NCBI GenBank assembly: GCA_903915035.1
Contig: CAIWRI010000071.1
Span: 1-33,998, forward strand
Source: an uncultured Nitrosomonadales bacterium
GTDB taxonomy: Bacteria; Pseudomonadota; Gammaproteobacteria; Burkholderiales; Gallionellaceae
Direction: 5' to 3'
Length of the DNA: 33,998 bases
A program made the translations under genes and the position numbers. The notes below the pieces were generated by a model, which searched no databases, was not told the origin of the DNA, and saw only the letters and a program-made list of their open reading frames with translations. Positions 10,832 through 33,937 of the stretch are shown here, in pieces (the stretch's first letter is position 1; each line of letters opens with the position of its first letter).

Positions 10832-10846
10832 GCACTGCCGTTTAAA

Positions 10847-10923
10847 CCAGTAGGAGAGCGTGATTGTAAAATCACCGCCGAAGGCGTAACACCCGTAACC
10901 GCTCAGGCACAAAGAACTATTGG
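10847..10923 (+). ncRNA. Glycine riboswitch, aptamer 1
   Basis: The P1 stem is CCAGTAG (10847-10853) with CTATTGG (10917-10923), including one G-U pair. Inside are GGAGAGCG, a GTGATT/AATCAC hairpin, the conserved core CGCCGAAGG, and CGCTCAGGCACAAAGAAC. This is a slightly degenerate form of the family CTCTCAGGTAAAAAGGAC strand. A short linker joins it to aptamer 2, the usual tandem arrangement. Glycine riboswitches control glycine-cleavage genes, and gcvT follows directly. Confidence 0.85.
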
Positions 10924-10932
10924 TACAGGCAA

Positions 10933-20615: not shown

Positions 20616-21413
20616 ATGTGGCTACGTATTGGATGCAGTATCACCTTCGACGTAAATGTCACCACCCCTTTTATATTGATGCTGCGTCCGCGCAACGGCA
20701 TACATCAGTGGATAGCGCGTGAATCCTACACGCTAAAACCCAGCGTACCCGCGATTGAGTATACGGATAATTTCGGCAATCTTTGCCAGCGCCTGGTTGC
20801 ACCTCCAGGTGAATTTACGATACAGACCTCTGCAGACATTTTAACCAGCGACTCCATTGATGTTCATTTCGGTGCGCCTTTCGAAGAAGTTCAGAATTTG
20901 CCAGATGAAGTACTGACTTATCTTTTGCCTACCCGCTACTGCGAATCAGACAAATTTATCGAAATGGGTCAGGAAATCGTCTCTGGCGTCCTACCCGGCT
21001 ATGATCAGGTTGCTGCAATTACAGACTGGATACGCAACAATATTCGCTTTAACTCTGACTCCAGCCACTTTCAAATGTCTGCGGTTGAAGTCAATATACA
21101 ACGTGAAGGCGTATGTCGTGAACTGGCGCATCTGGGCATCGCGCTTTGCCGGGGTTTGTGTATTCCGGCCAGAATGGTTGTGGGTTACCTGCATGAACTT
21201 AAACCCATGGATTTTCACGCCTGGTTTGAAGCCTATGTCGGCGGACGCTGGTACACTTTTGATCCGACCCAGAACAGGCCCAAGGGCGGACGAGTGACGG
21301 TAGCTTACGGACGCGATGCTGCGGATGTAGCGATTTTTAACCAGTTCGGTCCGGCGCTGTTTCCTCGCGAGATGTCTGTCCGGGTTGAATTACTGACTTC
21401 GGCACCGGAATAA
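20616..21413 (+). CDS. Transglutaminase-like domain protein (first of pair)
   Basis: A 265-residue protein with a beta-rich N-terminal domain (residues 1-85) and a transglutaminase-like cysteine protease fold. The expected triad is visible: Cys167 in [11 protein letters not shown], His201 in [11 protein letters not shown] and Asp216 in YTFDPTQN. It lacks a signal peptide and membrane segments, so it is likely cytoplasmic. The ATG at 20616 follows GGAAATCAATA. Its stop overlaps the next gene's start (TAATG), so the two are translationally coupled. Such paired proteins are widespread in bacteria; substrates are unknown, and protease, amidase or cross-linking roles are all possible. Confidence 0.88.
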
Positions 21414-22261
21414 TGCAGCGACTACGCATTAAGCATCTAACCGAATATTTTTTTTCGGATCAGGTGACGCTCAATCAACACATGCTGTTGTTGCGTCCGC
21501 GAGAAGGCCATGATGTGCGTATCGAATCATCAAAGCTGAATATTTTCCCTGCTTTCAATATTAAATGGCAGCGCGATGTATTCGATAACTCTCTGGCTCT
21601 GGTCACTTTTAAGGAGAATGCGGACAAGCTGATCATTGCCAGTGAAGTCATCATTCAACATTACGCTCCTGAACCTTATGATTTTTTGCTGCAATCCTAT
21701 GCGGTCAATTATCCATTCAGCTATGCAGCAAACGAACAGGTCGATCTGGCACCATTCCAGCAACCGTCTTTTCCAGAATATCAACAACTGATCAACAACT
21801 GGTTACATCCCTTAAAACTTAACGAAACTGAAACCTTTGCCCTACTGGTCAAGCTGAATCAAACCATTAGCCGTCAATTTCGTTATCAGGCCAGAGAAGA
21901 AGCCGGCGTACAATCGCCTGCACAAACGCTCACTCTGGGCAGCGGTTCCTGTCGCGATTACGCAACCCTCTTTATCGAAGCGTGCAGATGTATGGGTTTG
22001 GCCAGCCGTTTTGTCAGCGGCTACTTGCATGCGCCTGCGACAGAGGCAGGCAATGCAACGACCCATGCATGGGTGGAGATATATCTGCCGGGCACAGGAT
22101 GGAAGGGGTTCGATCCTACATCGGGTGAGGTTACCGGAAACCGGCATATTGCCGTCGCTGTTTCACGAAATCCTGAAGCTGTGCCGCCGGTATCCGGCAG
22201 CTTCATCGGTATCTATCCCGCTATCCTGCGAGTTAATGTACAAGTCAATCTGCTTGCCTGA
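21413..22261 (+). CDS. Transglutaminase-like domain protein (second of pair)
   Basis: A 282-residue paralogue-like partner. It starts with the bacterial transglutaminase N-terminal domain (RIKHLTEYFFSDQVTLNQHMLLLRP pattern in residues 5-29). The catalytic domain has Cys180 in GSGSCRDYATLF, His218 in TTHAWVEIYLPG and Asp234 in KGFDPTSGE. It is more canonical than its upstream neighbour. Both lack secretion signals. The alpha-E and ATP-grasp genes that often accompany this family are not present in the window. It converges on the atp operon across a parS-bearing gap. Confidence 0.9.
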   Translation: MQRLRIKHLTEYFFSDQVTLNQHMLLLRPREGHDVRIESSKLNIFPAFNIKWQRDVFDNSLALVTFKENADKLIIASEVIIQHYAPEPYDFLLQSYAVNYPFSYAANEQVDLAPFQQPSFPEYQQLINNWLHPLKLNETETFALLVKLNQTISRQFRYQAREEAGVQSPAQTLTLGSGSCRDYATLFIEACRCMGLASRFVSGYLHAPATEAGNATTHAWVEIYLPGTGWKGFDPTSGEVTGNRHIAVAVSRNPEAVPPVSGSFIGIYPAILRVNVQVNLLA

Positions 22262-22281
22262 AAAAGTCTCAGACAGTTCAA

Positions 22282-22297
22282 TGTTTCACGTGAAACA
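22282..22297. promoter_or_regulatory. parS site 1
   Basis: TGTTTCACGTGAAACA is a perfect 16-bp palindrome identical to the chromosomal parS consensus bound by ParB. It lies 21 bp after the second transglutaminase gene, about 11 kb from the presumed origin. Confidence 0.9.
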
Positions 22298-22818
22298 TTC
22301 ATCACTTAAAGCCAAACGAGTATAAAAATAATCCCTTCTGACTATGCAATGACTTTCGCAGGGATATTGCCTTTTTTGGGCAATAACTCGCCACCCCAAT
22401 TTTTTGCAGGAGAGAAGCACGATTCGTTGCTATGCGAGTTTCACGTTAAATCGGTGACAACAACGCGCAGATTCTCATTGAACGAACAACCCCCACCGAA
22501 AACCAAAACAGCAGTTAAGGCCTCGACAATCGCTTCAAATACATTTTTCTTACCGACACCTCAACAGCGAACCGCACCGCGATTGCCGCGCATTCTGAAC
22601 ACCCCCGCAAGCCTTCATTGACTTAGCTGCGTGCTCTGCAATATTTATTCGTTCTGAACCAGAATTTATGCGGAAATGGCATCACAATCTGACAATCACT
22701 ACGATGAAGCCTTCTCTGATGACACAGACGATTTTCGCGGCGGGTTTTGGCCGTGGTAAAAGTTCTCGCTTTGCTTAATATCAGATTCTAATTCCACTTT
22801 AACCGCAGCGCCATCAAA

Positions 22819-22834
22819 TGTTTCACGTGAAACA
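22819..22834. promoter_or_regulatory. parS site 2
   Basis: A second perfect TGTTTCACGTGAAACA, 55 bp downstream of the atpG stop. The surrounding AAATG...ACATTCA bases resemble those around site 1. Confidence 0.9.
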
Positions 22835-22889
22835 TTCACTTTTCATCCGATGAATATGGTTCATCGCTATGCGAGCTTTATGTAAGCGG

Positions 22890-23771
22890 CTATCCTACAG
22901 GACGGCGACCGCCTGAGAGCAGTTCATAACCTGCAATTACATCAAACAATTCTTCATCTATGCTGTTTTGCCGCAAGCGGTGAAAGTCCTGATTCAAGTC
23001 AGCCAGCAACTCTCCAATATTTTTCTCGGCACGCCGCATTGCAACCAGGCGACTGGCATTTTCACTTGCCAGCGATTCGGCACAGGCTCTGAACAGGGAG
23101 ATAAACAGATATTCGCGTACCAGTGCTTTTATCGTTGATTCAGCTCCGCCTATAATCTGCGGCAAATTTTTTGTCGGCCAGCGTATCCCGGACAAACCCT
23201 GTCGCCAGGCATCGTCCAGCGGCAGCAATCGCTGCATCACCGGTTCATACACCGAACCTGTCTTCGGGCGCTGGTGAAACAGGAAAACATGCGACACAGA
23301 ACCACGCATCGTTTCAATTTCACTGAGTATGCGTCCCACCAGAGAGGTGATCGCCGCGATTGAATTGGGTACGGAAAATCTGGCGGTGACAGGCAGACCG
23401 GCATCGGTCAAGTGCCCTTCCACCCGCTCGCCGACTGCAATCATTTGCGTCTGGCTGTTTTTCATTTTGCCGATCACATAATCTGCCAACTGCTCGTTGA
23501 ACTGCCCGACCAATCCCTGATCCGAGCCAAATACCACAGCGAGCATGCGCTCTGTCCGGTGACTATCCCCCGTATGCAAAACTGCCCCCGCCTGAGACAG
23601 ACTTGCAATCAGGCCCAGTTCTACGGTTCGATAATAATCATCCAGCGAGATGACTGCGCGCTCATATTGTGCGATGCTGGAAGCGGCCAGTGCTTTCATG
23701 GTGCGTACTACAGATTCCAGTTCAGCAGCGCCTTCAATCTTGCGATGCAAGCTCTCGGAAGTATCACTCAT
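22890..23771 (-). CDS. atpG: N-type ATPase gamma subunit
   Basis: A 293-residue central-stalk gamma subunit from the ATG at 23771 ([20 protein letters not shown]), overlapping the atpA stop by 8 bp; the longer upstream frame merely runs antisense-free inside atpA and is rejected. The N-terminal helix [20 protein letters not shown] and the central [17 protein letters not shown] (equivalent to the usual SD.GLCG.N) are visible. The C-terminal helix is [20 protein letters not shown]. It is last in the operon. Sequence is clearly divergent from housekeeping AtpG, as expected for this clade. Confidence 0.9.
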
Positions 23772-25281
23772 GCTGCTGGAATGAGCGGAGTGTTTCAGCT
23801 GCAAGCTGTAAAATTGCCGCCCGGTCACTGCTGTCGAAATTATCCGCTGAAGTGAATCGCTCAACGATTTCCTCCGGCAACAAAGCTGCTGCTTGGCACA
23901 GTGCCAGTTCAGCTTCACGCATTTTCGCCAGGGGCACGCTATCGAACAGCCTGGCAGTCAAGGCCAGCAATACGGCAATTTGTCCCGGCACTGTCATCGG
24001 TTCAAATTCAGACTGTTTAAGACAGCTGCGAATGCGCCGCCCGTGTTCGATAATTTCCCGGGTATTTTCATCCAGCCGGGTGCCAAATCGAGCAAAGGTT
24101 TCCAGCTCTTCGAACTGCGCATAAGCCAGTTTTAAGTCGCCGGCCACTGCCCGATATGCTGCCCGCTGTGCCTTGCCGCCGACGCGTGAAACAGATTTAC
24201 TCACATCAACGGCAGGAAGAATACCCAGTTCGAATAATTTGGGTGAAAGATAAATCTGCCCGTCGGTGATAGAGATCAGATTAGTGGGAATATAGGCGGA
24301 AATATTCTGCGCCTCGGTTTCGATAATCGGCAGCGCGGTGAGCGAACCTCCGCCCAGTTCATCCAGCAAATGCGTGGCACGTTCGAGCAACCGGGAATGG
24401 ATGTAGAAAATATCGCCGGGGTAGGCTTCACGACCGGGCGGGCGTCTTAACAACAGCGATAATTCACGATAAGCGCGGGCATGATGCGTCAGATCATCAT
24501 AGACAATGAGCACATCGCGACCTGCCTCCATGAAATATTCTGCGATACTGGTCGCGGCATAAGGGGCGATATAGGTTAAACCAGGCGGATCATTGCCCTC
24601 TGTTACCACCACCACCGTGTATTCCATCGCGCCGTTTTCGCGCAGACTGGCAACCGTCTGAGCCACAGCAGAGGCACGCTGGCCGATGGCGCAATAAACG
24701 CACAGCACGTCGCGCTGATTCAAAATGGTGTCTATGGCTATGGCCGTTTTTCCGGTCTGCCTGTCCCCCAGAATAAGCTCGCGCTGACCGCGCCCTATGG
24801 GTACCAGCGCATCAATGACCTTGATGCCGGTCTGCAAGGGCGTCGTCACCGGTGCACGATCCATGATGTGTGGCGCAGGTCGCTCGATAGGCAAACGTTT
24901 GTCAAACAGCACAGGCCCCCTGTCATCCAGCGGCCTGCCCAACGGGTTGATCACCCGCCCGATCAGGCCATCTCCTACCGGCACATCCATCACATGACCA
25001 CGGCGTTCAACTTCGGCACCCGCGTTCAGATGCCAGTAATCCCCAAGCAAAACAGCACCGATTTCATCCTCATCGACATTGAACGCAATGCCATACAAAT
25101 CACCTGGAAATTTCAATACCTCCTCAAAACCCACCCCAGGCAGTCCGGACACTCTGGCAATCCCGGTGGACAAACTGATGACGGTGCCAGTTTCGCATGA
25201 TGCCAACTGCGGCACATGCGCCTGTCGCGCCTGACTGACAGCCGAAAAAGTATGGTTAATTATGCTCTGCAGGCTTTTCAT
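23764..25281 (-). CDS. atpA: N-type ATPase alpha subunit
   Basis: A 505-residue F1 alpha subunit. The nucleotide-binding P-loop is GDRQTGKT at residues 172-179, followed by [37 protein letters not shown] and [30 protein letters not shown] are standard alpha motifs. It pairs with AtpD in the catalytic hexamer. Its start overlaps the end of atpF by 4 bp and its end overlaps atpG by 8 bp. Confidence 0.95.
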
Positions 25282-26027
25282 TTTGATTCGCCGGCGGGCT
25301 GCATTTTAAGCAAAGTGCTCACTTCATTTTCCAGTGTGGAAAGATAGTCCGCCACACTCCAGACAATTTTATGTCCGTGCGCGATCAGGACAATGCCATT
25401 AATGAGTTCAGGCATGACTTCAAAGTTGATCTCAGCAGGGGTCAGTTTTCTGATCGCATCTTCAATGGTGCTGCGCTCAGTCTGTGCAAATGCGCTGCGC
25501 ACCAGCACCTGAGTCGCGTTTGCGAGTTGTTGCTGCACATTAATATCCAGCATGCCCAGACGCTGAATAAACACTGCTGCCATGCGTTCTTCGAGACTTT
25601 CATCCGCCAGATCACACAGTATTTTTTTGGCTATGGCAAAAGCTTCGGCACTGGCCTTGCGGGAAATTTCATCACCCAGTTGCCGGTATTCATTTTGCAA
25701 TTGCTCCTGCTGCTTGCCGCGTAAATCATCAGCATCGCTTCTTGCAATACTGATCAGGCGCTGACGCTCGACTGCCGCATCGTCAGTTGCCTGCTTGAGC
25801 AGGACAATCCTCTCCGCCTCCAGTTCTGCTTGCTTGCGGGCATAGTCAGCCATCGAAGCATGTGCCTCGGCCTGCATCGTTTCGGCATGAGCTAACTCCG
25901 CCGCGATGCGTTTTTCCCGCGCGTCAATTGCATTAATAATCGGTGCGTATAGAAACCGCTTTAACAACCACACCAGAATGAGGAAGTTGACAGCTTGTGC
26001 CGCAACGGTAAACCAGTCGATCAGCAT
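25278..26027 (-). CDS. atpF: N-type ATPase b subunit with delta-like C-terminal extension
   Basis: A 249-residue stator subunit from the ATG at 26027, which overlaps the atpE stop by one base (TAATG). Residues 5-25 are a membrane helix. Residues of about 35-150 form a long charged coiled coil (b-type stalk). Residues of about 160-240 end in [20 protein letters not shown], similar to the C-terminal segment of delta subunits, where LIGG and a final helix recur. Ordinary b subunits are about 155-160 residues, so this looks like b plus a delta-equivalent domain, which fits the absence of an atpH gene. The delta relationship is my reading, not tested. Confidence 0.88.
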
Positions 26028-26302
26028 TATTTTACCTGCGCAATGACGTGATTCCAGAACGGATTGGCGAAGAGCAGAATCATCGAGACCACGAAACAAT
26101 AAATAGCCATAGATTCGATCATCGCAAGTCCCACGAACAGGGTACGGGTAATCGTCGAGGATGCATCCGGTTGCTGTGCAAGGGCGAGCAGAGCCGAGGC
26201 GACCGCCCGTCCCTGTCCCATTCCCGGCCCCAGAACACCCAGGCCGATGGTCAGTCCCGCAGTAATAATGGAAGCTGCTGCGATTAAAGTTGTGTTATCC
26301 AT
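26027..26302 (-). CDS. atpE: N-type ATPase c subunit with Na+-ligand residues
   Basis: A 91-residue rotor-ring subunit of two membrane helices joined by an AQQPDA loop. Helix 1 has GPGMGQGRA with Gln30. Helix 2 has MIESMAIY with the ion-carrying Glu63 followed by Ser64. In the Na+ c-ring of Ilyobacter, Gln32, Glu65 and Ser66 hold Na+; these align here, while the water-coordinating Thr67 is replaced by Met65. This points to Na+ binding, though the Met leaves affinity uncertain. The Ile/Leu/Ala content is typical. It sits between atpB and atpF, overlapping atpF by one base. Confidence 0.95.
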   Translation of the reverse strand: MDNTTLIAAASIITAGLTIGLGVLGPGMGQGRAVASALLALAQQPDASSTITRTLFVGLAMIESMAIYCFVVSMILLFANPFWNHVIAQVK

Positions 26303-26304
26303 AC

Positions 26305-26994
26305 TTATCCCCTGTCTTCGTTTATGGTGTCTGATGTGCCGCTGGCGGCTGCGATGAAAACCGTGGCGAGTACGCTGAAAATATAGGCCTGAACCATCCC
26401 GGTCAGCAGTCCCAGCATGTTCATCAGCATCGGAAAAATGAAAGGCGTGACGATCAGCAGTATCGCCAGTATCATGGTTCCGCTCATCATGTTGCCGAAC
26501 AGACGCACCGCAAGTGCTAACGTATGGGACAGTTCACTGATGATATTGAATGGCAGCATAATGAGCGTAGGCTCGGCAAATGTCTTAAGGTAGCCCGGCA
26601 GGCCGCGCTCCCTGATTGCATAGAACGGCACCGCGACAAAAACCAGCAGAGCCAGCGCAGTGGTCGTTGACAGCGAACCGGTAGGAGGTTCATAAACAGG
26701 AAAGACTGTTAACAGATTCGCAGTCGCTATGAACAGAAATAGCGTCCCTACAAAGCCCAGATACTTTTCCGGCTGTCTTAGTCCAACCTCGCCTATCTGG
26801 TTACGGATGCCGATCACGATGATTTCCAGCAGACTTTGCCAGCGTGTAATACGCACCTCATTCCCCAAATTGCGCGTGACATGCTTCGCACCGGCAACCA
26901 GCAAGATCATCAGCAGCCAGGTGGTTGCGATCGTCGCGTTAAGCTTTATTGCTCCATACTGCAAGAGGATGATTTCATCAGTGCTAAGATGCAT
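26305..26994 (-). CDS. atpB: N-type ATPase a subunit
   Basis: A 229-residue polytopic stator subunit with five or six membrane segments forming the ion half-channels. The essential arginine is Arg164 in LALAVRLFGNMMSG. The N-terminal extracytoplasmic portion is short. It is separated from atpE by 2 bp and from atpR by 17 bp. AtpB faces the c-ring and completes the ion path. Confidence 0.94.
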   Translation of the reverse strand: MHLSTDEIILLQYGAIKLNATIATTWLLMILLVAGAKHVTRNLGNEVRITRWQSLLEIIVIGIRNQIGEVGLRQPEKYLGFVGTLFLFIATANLLTVFPVYEPPTGSLSTTTALALLVFVAVPFYAIRERGLPGYLKTFAEPTLIMLPFNIISELSHTLALAVRLFGNMMSGTMILAILLIVTPFIFPMLMNMLGLLTGMVQAYIFSVLATVFIAAASGTSDTINEDRG

Positions 26995-27011
26995 GGTTAA
27001 CCTCCTTAATA

Positions 27012-27323
27012 TTAAGATTGCGCAGCCCCGCCCCCCGCATGCGGAAGGTAGTCAGGCGAGAGTGGTTTCAAGCGGGTCAGCCGGATAACGATAGCCCGTG
27101 CCGTAATGAAACCCAGCAAGCACGCCAACAGCTTTCTCCAGTCATCTCCTGCCACGAAATAAAATCCGCACAAGGTAAAGACCAGCCGCAACAACAAACT
27201 GAAAATAAACCAGCTTGCCGGGCTCACCGATGCAACGGCTTTTTTAACCGTCCACCACAGTCCGCCGAAATACAAGGTGCCCAGCAGCTCGCCAAAAGTC
27301 ATTGCCAACAGCAAGTCAATCAT
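27012..27323 (-). CDS. atpR: N-ATPase accessory membrane protein AtpR
   Basis: A 103-residue membrane protein from the ATG at 27323 (MIDLLLAMTFGELLGTLYFGG), overlapping the atpQ stop by 8 bp. It has three predicted membrane segments with arginines near or within the second and third (LLLRLVFTL, TARAIVIRLTRL). It is encoded between atpQ and atpB, the position that defines AtpR in N-ATPase operons. Its role is not established; assistance in c-ring assembly or ion handling has been considered. The C-terminus is short, soluble and Gly/Ala-rich. Confidence 0.85.
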   Translation of the reverse strand: MIDLLLAMTFGELLGTLYFGGLWWTVKKAVASVSPASWFIFSLLLRLVFTLCGFYFVAGDDWRKLLACLLGFITARAIVIRLTRLKPLSPDYLPHAGGGAAQS

Positions 27324-27618
27324 CGTTCTCCTCCAGCTCGTCGCTAATTTTTTTGCCTTCTTTATCGATCCAGTACCAGGCATTCAAACAGCCTGTGGAT
27401 AGTCCGATGATCAGCAGCGTCAGCGTCCAGGAATGAATTCCGGGATAGTGTTTATCAAGCCATAAGCCCAGCGCCGTACCAAGTAAGGTAGGTACCGCAA
27501 CTGCCCAGCCGACCAGCCCCATCATGCCAAAACCCATCCAGACCGTTTGAATGACTCTGCGTTGCGCCCTGATTTTCCGGGTTTCCTTTTCGCCCACCTT
27601 ACGAAGAAAATCAGCCAC
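27316..27618 (-). CDS. atpQ: N-ATPase accessory membrane protein AtpQ (AtpI-like)
   Basis: A 100-residue protein using the GTG at 27618, which overlaps the atpC stop by 8 bp; longer in-frame starts would lie deep in atpC. A basic N-terminus (KETRKIRAQRR) precedes two membrane segments joined by GLWLDKHYPGIHSW, similar to AtpI-type proteins. The C-terminus is acidic (DELEENDD). Its place after atpC and before atpR identifies it as AtpQ. Function in the family is unresolved; it may aid c-ring assembly or cation supply. Confidence 0.85.
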   Translation of the reverse strand: MADFLRKVGEKETRKIRAQRRVIQTVWMGFGMMGLVGWAVAVPTLLGTALGLWLDKHYPGIHSWTLTLLIIGLSTGCLNAWYWIDKEGKKISDELEENDD

Positions 27619-28015
27619 GATGATACTCCGCAAAGCGGCGCACGAAACCGCTTTCCAGTCTTGCCAGCACTGCGCGAACTTGTTTCTCTCCTTCATCGAT
27701 ATTGATAAATTCACGTTCTATGGCCTCGCGCAACTGACCTAGGCTCATGCCGGAAATTGCGTTGCGCACAGAAACAAGGACTTCGCTGCCAGCCTTTACC
27801 AGGACACCTTCATCTACCGCAAGGTAGATTTCATTATCAGATCCCATCTGATAAGTCAGAATTCCGGCTTCAAGTACCGCCACGCAGTCCAACCGGTGCG
27901 GCAGCAGGCCGAATGAGCCTTGCGCCGTTTCCGCCACGATCCTTGTTACGCCGTCTATCTGAGCGAAAACCTGATACGGCAGCAGAACTTTAAGTTTCAT
28001 AGAGGCCGTCATCAT
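27611..28015 (-). CDS. atpC: N-type ATPase epsilon subunit
   Basis: A 134-residue epsilon subunit with an N-terminal beta-sandwich (LKVLLPYQVFAQIDGVTRIVAET, GSFGLLPHRLDCVAVL) and a helical C-terminus (REAIEREFINIDEGEKQVRAVLARLESGFVRRF). The start may be the ATG at 28015 or the in-frame one at 28000 (MKLKVLLPY), which better resembles the family; Shine-Dalgarno signals do not decide. The gene abuts the atpD stop and overlaps atpQ. Epsilon second in the operon, straight after beta, is a mark of N-ATPases. Confidence 0.9.
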   Translation of the reverse strand: MMTASMKLKVLLPYQVFAQIDGVTRIVAETAQGSFGLLPHRLDCVAVLEAGILTYQMGSDNEIYLAVDEGVLVKAGSEVLVSVRNAISGMSLGQLREAIEREFINIDEGEKQVRAVLARLESGFVRRFAEYHRG

Positions 28016-32484
<4,469 letters not shown>

Positions 32485-32490
32485 TTACCA

Positions 32491-33597
32491 CTAGATACGC
32501 ATAGGCATGACGACATAGCGAAACTCAAAGTCATCGGCTGATGTGATCAAAATACTGCTGTTCGGATTGCCAAAAGAAAAAATAGCCATCTCACTATGAA
32601 TACTGCTAAGTCCGTCCATCAAATAATTAACATTAAAACCGATATCGATCGCCTCACCATGATAATCAGTTTCAATTTCAACCTGAGCCTCTTCCTGTTC
32701 GCTATTACTGCTGATAATGCAAAGATTTTTTTCAGTCAGAACGAAGCGAACGCCTCTGAATTTCTCATTGGACAAGATAGCCGCTCTTTGCAGCGCTTGC
32801 TGAACGAGTGTACGGTTGATGCTTAAATGATTGCTGTAATTAGGAATAACTCTATGATAATCAGGAAATTTACCTTCAATCAACTTGGTTGTCAGTTCAA
32901 TTCCGGAAAAGCTAGCTTTGAATTGTAATGTCGAAAATTCAAGTTCTACAGGTTCATTATCGTCACTCAATAATTTTGAAAGCTCCACAATGGCTTTGCG
33001 TGGAATAATTATTTCAATTTTATCCATCTGACAGTCTACAGGAATTGCGTTGTAAGCAAGCCTGTGACCATCAGTTGCGACAGCTCTCAAAATATTTTCC
33101 TCAATGACAATCAACACGCCATTCAAATAATAGCGGACATCTTGTTGAGCCATAGCAAACTGAACAGAGGCTAATATTTTTTTCAACGCGGATTGATTTA
33201 ACCTCAGTTTGCGTGAATCCGTGAGTTGATTACTCAGCTTGGGAAAATCTTGTGCCGGCAAAGACTGAAGATTGAATTTACTTTTACTGGATTTGATATG
33301 AGCTTTGTTATCTTTCAAATCGATTGAGACTTTACTCTGATCCGGAAGTATGCGCAATATTTCCTGAAGTTTCTTCCCGCCTACAGTAATTGCAGAAATC
33401 GAATCATCATGAATATCGGTAGCAATTGAGGTAGTAATTTGTATTTCCAGATCAGTTGAAGTAAAGCGAATTGAATCAATTTCTTTTTCAATCAATATGT
33501 TAGATAAAATAGGCATCGTTTGTTTACGCTCAACAATGCCTACTACGATTTGTAATGGCTTTAACAAATCTTCTTTTGCTATCTTTTCAATAAACAT
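32491..33597 (-). CDS. dnaN: DNA polymerase III beta subunit (sliding clamp)
   Basis: A 368-residue beta clamp, of normal length, composed of three repeats of the clamp fold. It starts MFIEKIAKEDLLKPLQIVVGIVERKQTMPILSNIL-like, with the family's LL..L..V.G.VE...T.PIL pattern, and ends in the conserved YVVMPMRI, part of the partner-binding pocket. The clamp tethers polymerase III to DNA. The ATG at 33597 is preceded by AGGT about ten bases upstream. It is transcribed away from the presumed origin; dnaA should lie beyond the right edge of the window. Base composition is noticeably richer in A and T than in the genes to the left. Confidence 0.98.
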   Translation of the reverse strand: MFIEKIAKEDLLKPLQIVVGIVERKQTMPILSNILIEKEIDSIRFTSTDLEIQITTSIATDIHDDSISAITVGGKKLQEILRILPDQSKVSIDLKDNKAHIKSSKSKFNLQSLPAQDFPKLSNQLTDSRKLRLNQSALKKILASVQFAMAQQDVRYYLNGVLIVIEENILRAVATDGHRLAYNAIPVDCQMDKIEIIIPRKAIVELSKLLSDDNEPVELEFSTLQFKASFSGIELTTKLIEGKFPDYHRVIPNYSNHLSINRTLVQQALQRAAILSNEKFRGVRFVLTEKNLCIISSNSEQEEAQVEIETDYHGEAIDIGFNVNYLMDGLSSIHSEMAIFSFGNPNSSILITSADDFEFRYVVMPMRI

Positions 33598-33759: not shown

Positions 33760-33768
33760 TTATCCACA
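33760..33768 (+). promoter_or_regulatory. Perfect DnaA box
   Basis: TTATCCACA matches the strict DnaA-box consensus, and a relaxed box TTATGCACA follows two bases later in the same orientation (33771-33779), an 11-bp centre spacing that places both on the same face of the helix. Confidence 0.8.
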
Positions 33769-33928
33769 CTTTATGCACAGGAAAATCACATTGTTATTGA
33801 TATTCCTAAAAACCCGCTTTTAGAAAAATCTAAAAAATTTTTATGTAAATTATCCTGTTGAGTGTTTTGTTTCTTATGTTAAGAAAGTAATATAAAAAAC
33901 TAATAATCATAATAAAGCGTAACAATTA

Positions 33929-33937
33929 TGTGGATAA
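33929..33937 (-). promoter_or_regulatory. Perfect DnaA box, opposite orientation
   Basis: TGTGGATAA is the exact complement of the strict DnaA box, 160 bp from the plus-strand box and across the most AT-rich part of the region. Confidence 0.75.

Follow-up and report, generated by a model that had tools for sequence, protein, structure and literature searches.

Why do two identical 16-bp palindromes lie in a single gap between converging genes in an uncultured Gallionella-like bacterium? The gap is part of a stretch of 33,998 nucleotides, which was analysed whole and is called the window here. The initial annotation read the palindromes as perfect parS sites and the DNA between them as a dedicated ParB-loading segment, perhaps created by duplication. 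Our analysis indicates that the two sites, parS1 and parS2, very probably form part of an ordinary parS cluster close to the origin, serving a chromosomal ParABS system. The features of the region are listed in Table 1.

Table 1. Coordinates of the features discussed in the text (window positions)
Feature	Position	Strand	Remarks
Transglutaminase-like protein, left convergent neighbour	21413..22261	+	PF01841, PF08379
parS1	22280..22301, core 22282-22297	.	perfect 16-bp core, sequence match
Decayed repeat copy	22338..22453	+	~122-bp family consensus; nhmmer E 8.4e-07 at 22387-22449
Interval between repeat and parS2, 363 bp	22454..22816	.	no recognisable gene
parS2	22817..22838, core 22819-22834	.	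perfect 16-bp core, sequence match
Possible relic of the repeat's right end, weak	22860..22883	+	79% identical to 22423-22446
N-type ATPase gamma subunit, right convergent neighbour	22890..23918	-	PF00231
N-type ATPase operon	22890-29470		AtpR PF12966 at 27012-27383
gyrB	30052..32430	-	ORF called from 32469; start 32430 fits relatives' MSEYD start
parS3	32453-32468	.	perfect 16-mer, dnaN-gyrB gap
dnaN	32491..33597	-	DnaA-box-like 9-mers beyond at 33760-33937

Both flagged sites are real and stand 537 bp apart, start to start, and a third perfect site (parS3) had been overlooked. The three sites are called perfect against the 16-bp sequence TGTTTCACGTGAAACA, which we take to be the parS consensus. 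Across 100 dinucleotide-shuffled versions of the window, parS matches with up to three mismatches averaged 0.09 and never numbered three. The core of parS1 is embedded in a 20-bp palindrome. The identity between parS1 and parS2 covers 22 bp (AATGTTTCACGTGAAACATTCA), six bases beyond the 16-mer, namely AA on the left and TTCA on the right. The stop codon of the transglutaminase-like gene lies 20 bp before parS1, and that of the N-ATPase gamma gene 55 bp from parS2. The search of the whole genome for further copies, which had been proposed, was carried out on the assembly of 3,158,895 bases in 155 contigs. It yielded parS3 as the one additional perfect site, so that all three perfect sites are on the dnaN-gyrB contig, and four more parS-like places with two mismatches each. 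One of these is at the 5' end of mnmG (C54:10031-10046).

The parAB genes, whose location was also to be looked up, are not on the window contig and were found on contig C54, in the gene order mnmG-rsmG-parA-parB-atpI (parA and parB named by Pfam, the other three by reading the ORFs). Absence of parB from the genome had been named as an argument against ParB loading, and parB is present. Its product matches TIGR00180 (E 3.8e-57) and carries the N-terminal, HTH and dimerisation domains (PF02195, PF17762, and PF23552). The adjacent parA encodes a protein with the AAA_31 (Walker ATPase) domain. The same genome encodes a second protein with only the ParB_N domain (L009:380-1264, contig C95), possibly of plasmid or mobile-element origin. 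Because this second protein exists, the pairing of the C54 ParB with the window sites is an assumption.

The sites share their contig with dnaN, gyrB, and DnaA-box-like sequences. Three DnaA-box-like 9-mers lie beside dnaN and there are no others in the window, which upholds the estimate of about 11 kb from the convergent gap to the presumed origin. The dnaA gene is outside the window, yet it adjoins dnaN in relatives. As judged from the sequence, the view that the window holds origin-proximal chromosomal parS sites, partly in a convergent gap, is supported. The N-type ATPase operon with AtpR adjoins gyrB in the window. The gamma gene of this ATPase occurs in 25 of 76 genus genomes; the N-ATPase adjoins gyrB in the congener G077 too, and in G029 it is near gyrB across a 3.9-kb gap.

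Perfect parS sites are common in the relatives. They are present in 43 of the 61 genomes searched and, across the order, in 139 of 250. Pairs of perfect sites no more than 600 bp apart were found in 4/61 genomes (the window genome, G013, G043, and G055), and at least 11 of the 250 genomes of the order have such pairs. Among the dnaN-gyrB gaps of 20 relatives, the window excluded, 11 hold a perfect parS, seven hold a site with one or two mismatches and two hold none within two mismatches, frequencies that are biased upward since 19 of the 20 regions were picked for genomes with a perfect parS. In six genomes, a perfect site was found farther out on the gyrB side (the window genome, G003, G011, G015, G028, and G077). 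In G003 and G015, this site is between gyrB and topA, and in G011 it still adjoins topA though other genes part it from gyrB. At L041:10920, L047:15092, and L049:14440, a topA-side parS forms the middle of a palindrome of 30 bp, whose outer 7 bp differ between the genomes and remain complementary.

The closest counterpart of parS2 is in G077, which has the order dnaA-dnaN-parS-gyrB-N-ATPase-parS-ksgA. Its perfect site lies 45 bp past the gamma stop codon, compared with 55 bp for parS2. When 25 N-ATPase gamma loci were compared together with flanks of at most about 1.5 kb, a parS-like site (three mismatches or fewer) was found only in those of the window genome and G077. The ksgA gene of the window genome is on another contig, C66. 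Four genomes carry a transglutaminase-like gene 77-80% identical to that of the window, and no parS within two mismatches was found in the regions fetched from them. Nor were parS1 and its surroundings found in any relative examined. Thus parS2 has a positional counterpart in G077, parS1 is without one among the relatives examined, and conservation backs only parS2 and parS3. On sequence comparison, parS1 and the DNA between the sites are peculiar to the window genome among those examined, and they sit where its gene order departs from that of the relatives. In the simplest history that we infer, the N-ATPase genes were inserted between gyrB and a parS site, and the window genome acquired new neighbours there afterwards.

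The gap that holds parS1 and parS2 was described initially as a gene-poor interval of 520 bp between convergent genes. Convergence and the lack of a recognisable gene hold, and the length is corrected to 628 bp (22262-22889). The only ORF of at least 80 aa wholly inside the gap (22349-22621, 90 aa) has no Pfam match. No other copy of the interval between the repeat and parS2 was found in the genome itself or in 61 genus genomes, apart from one 31-bp match. This match is to a gene of G078, an M23-type peptidase by reading, and as a sign of a gene remnant (tblastn E 0.009 over 14 residues) it was rejected as chance. RNA families gave no match in the gap. The single match in the window is a glycine riboswitch at 10841-10929, upstream of genes reading as gcvT-gcvH-gcvP.

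A direct repeat had been reported near the sites, in both halves of the interval. The exact 10-mer GCTATGCGAG does occur twice (22430-22439 and 22867-22876), with its second copy to the right of parS2 and beyond the flagged interval. When positions 22200-22900 were compared with the 61 genus genomes, no second copy of the gap was found, and 22338-22397 and 22409-22453 matched many unrelated places; 16/61 genomes, counting that of the window, gave a match. The two matching parts belong to a palindromic repeat family of about 122 bp, which starts TAACGGGCATGG and ends TCGCTNCGCGAGTTTCACGTTAA, its ends reading TAACG...CGTTAA. The repeat model was built from 32 of 39 full repeats found. The left half of the consensus forms 10 base pairs, and a model of this half alone detected 16 copies in the window genome. 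A pattern scan of named genomes gave at least 118 stretches, in records named Gallionella, Sulfuricella, Sulfurimicrobium, Nitrotoga, and others. The places of the family are the window copy, L061-L089, and L115-L232. A second mobile palindrome is nested in the window copy at about 22355-22390; this palindrome (GCAGGGATATTGCC...GGGCAATAACTCGC) is present in some copies of the repeat and also inside other repeats.

Dispersed palindromic repeats of this sort are called MITE- or REP-like. The window repeat resembles them in being short, palindromic, apparently non-coding, and scattered through many Gallionellaceae and related records. By copy number and palindrome it is a candidate of this kind, its family membership being provisional. 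A literature search found no paper on Gallionella repeats or MITEs, or on repetitive palindromic DNA of Gallionellaceae. As to the second GCTATGCGAG stretch, direct comparison of the flanks gave P 0.011 against shuffles. Its status as a certain repeat copy was rejected (nhmmer E 2 over the 34-kb window), and the likeness is suggestive. The idea that GCTATGCGAG is a short motif used genome-wide was also dropped; TTCRTYGCTATGCGAG with up to two mismatches occurs at 13 places, against four for the reversed control. The GCTATGCGAG repeat is, by these matches, part of a dispersed palindromic element and separate from the parS unit. Such an element would have landed in the gap and then decayed.

Segmental duplication of a parS site together with adjacent sequence, resulting in a dedicated double loading segment, is very unlikely. 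The six identical bases beyond the core could be a remnant of an old duplication, and the 24-bp stretches around GCTATGCGAG are 79% alike, although their distances from parS1 and parS2 are unequal (141 bp and 41 bp between starts) and the first is the end of the dispersed repeat. Outside the 22 bp, the flanks share just this stretch. With parS and the repeat end masked, the right flanks resemble each other no more than shuffled sequences do (alignment score 14.0 versus a shuffled mean of 13.4). Moreover, true parS duplications in the order look different in that whole units are repeated. G159 carries a tandem array of a 220-bp unit in 12.4 copies with 13 perfect parS sites (L328:3565-6287, contig C61), and G115 one of a 389-bp unit in 3.4 copies with three perfect sites (L329:3062-4370, contig C1). 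Each array unit holds one perfect parS, and the arrays lie between ORFs reading as metK and dapF. We regard them as resembling a satellite-like bacterial centromere; in a literature search by titles alone, none named a chromosomal tandem parS array. The proposed origin by duplication therefore finds no basis in the flanks. The gap, proposed as a dedicated loading segment, contains two ordinary parS sites plus a repeat relic, and equally close pairs are present in related genomes.

The parS sites of the convergent gap might also act as hairpins at the transcript 3' ends of both facing genes, in addition to loading ParB, and this we consider highly improbable. A stop codon lies within 55 bp of each site, and no terminator-like site turned up between 21800 and 23200. 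In G003, G011, and G015, the palindrome of the topA-side parS continues perfectly for another 7 bp, with letters that vary between genomes and stay complementary, and the two examples folded gave z -8.3 (G015) and z -5.0 (G011). Among 112 distinct parS contexts, array copies of G159 and G115 among them, 10 have a flanking palindrome of at least 4 bp, versus 1.2 expected. However, these three genomes represent one locus, and the extension occurs in two of eight convergent and six of 59 tandem contexts among those classified (orientation assigned from open frames of at least 120 codons). In the window itself, the palindromes extend by 2 bp, their folding is unexceptional (z -0.7 and -1.3), and a T tract is absent after the sites. 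The observation of longer palindromes thus does not explain the window pair. For Gallionella-like bacteria in general, it is an equally speculative proposal, with little chance of being right, that some parS sites just behind stop codons combine ParB loading as DNA with a 3'-end hairpin as RNA. If true, the palindrome under selection would exceed the 16 bp of parS, and the window pair would represent a weak version.

The right end of the dispersed repeat includes the half-parS heptamer GTTTCAC. The consensus of the family finishes with GAGTTTCACGTTAA, the copy between parS1 and parS2 retains the heptamer, and in Pseudomonas aeruginosa, according to two reports, ParB binds the half-sites GTTTCAC and GTTCCAC (PMC7022226, PMC10419367). 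Nevertheless, a functional link of the repeat to ParB is very improbable. Of the 16 own-genome copies, which were detected with the left-half model alone, six have a right end within five mismatches, and just two of these six retain the heptamer, which does not support its conservation; its conservation in the named-genome scan reflects how the copies were selected, since the search pattern itself contained GTTTCAC.

An ordinary origin-proximal parS cluster is thus our preferred reading. The parS sequence, ParB, ParA, and the position near dnaN and gyrB are established here, and binding and segregation would be as in the family. Each 16-bp palindrome would be recognised by ParB dimers, which would shut as CTP-bound clamps and slide out onto the adjoining DNA. 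ParA would move the ParB-parS complex, which may also load SMC, and the newly copied origin region would be partitioned. In this cluster, parS2 would be a site retained on the gyrB-side arm, at its N-ATPase end. Convergent transcription around the gap may simply make it a safe location for two sites.

The closest known parallel is the parS1-4 cluster of P. aeruginosa. According to a review, ParB binds four parS sites near oriC there, the ori domain holds most chromosomal parS sites, and the presence of more than one may contribute to robustness (PMC7022226). Both systems have the 16-bp site, parA-parB beside rsmG/mnmG, and several sites near the origin. Unlike the P. aeruginosa cluster, the window genome has two sites in one convergent gap, three on the gyrB side, and a site with two mismatches at the 5' end of mnmG (C54:10031).

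These results remove a false lead, as the shared GCTATGCGAG is part of a dispersed repeat and is no sign of segment duplication. They also show a parS site that has held its position next to an inserted operon although its other neighbours have been exchanged. For the little-studied Gallionella-like lineage, the likely centromere region is located.
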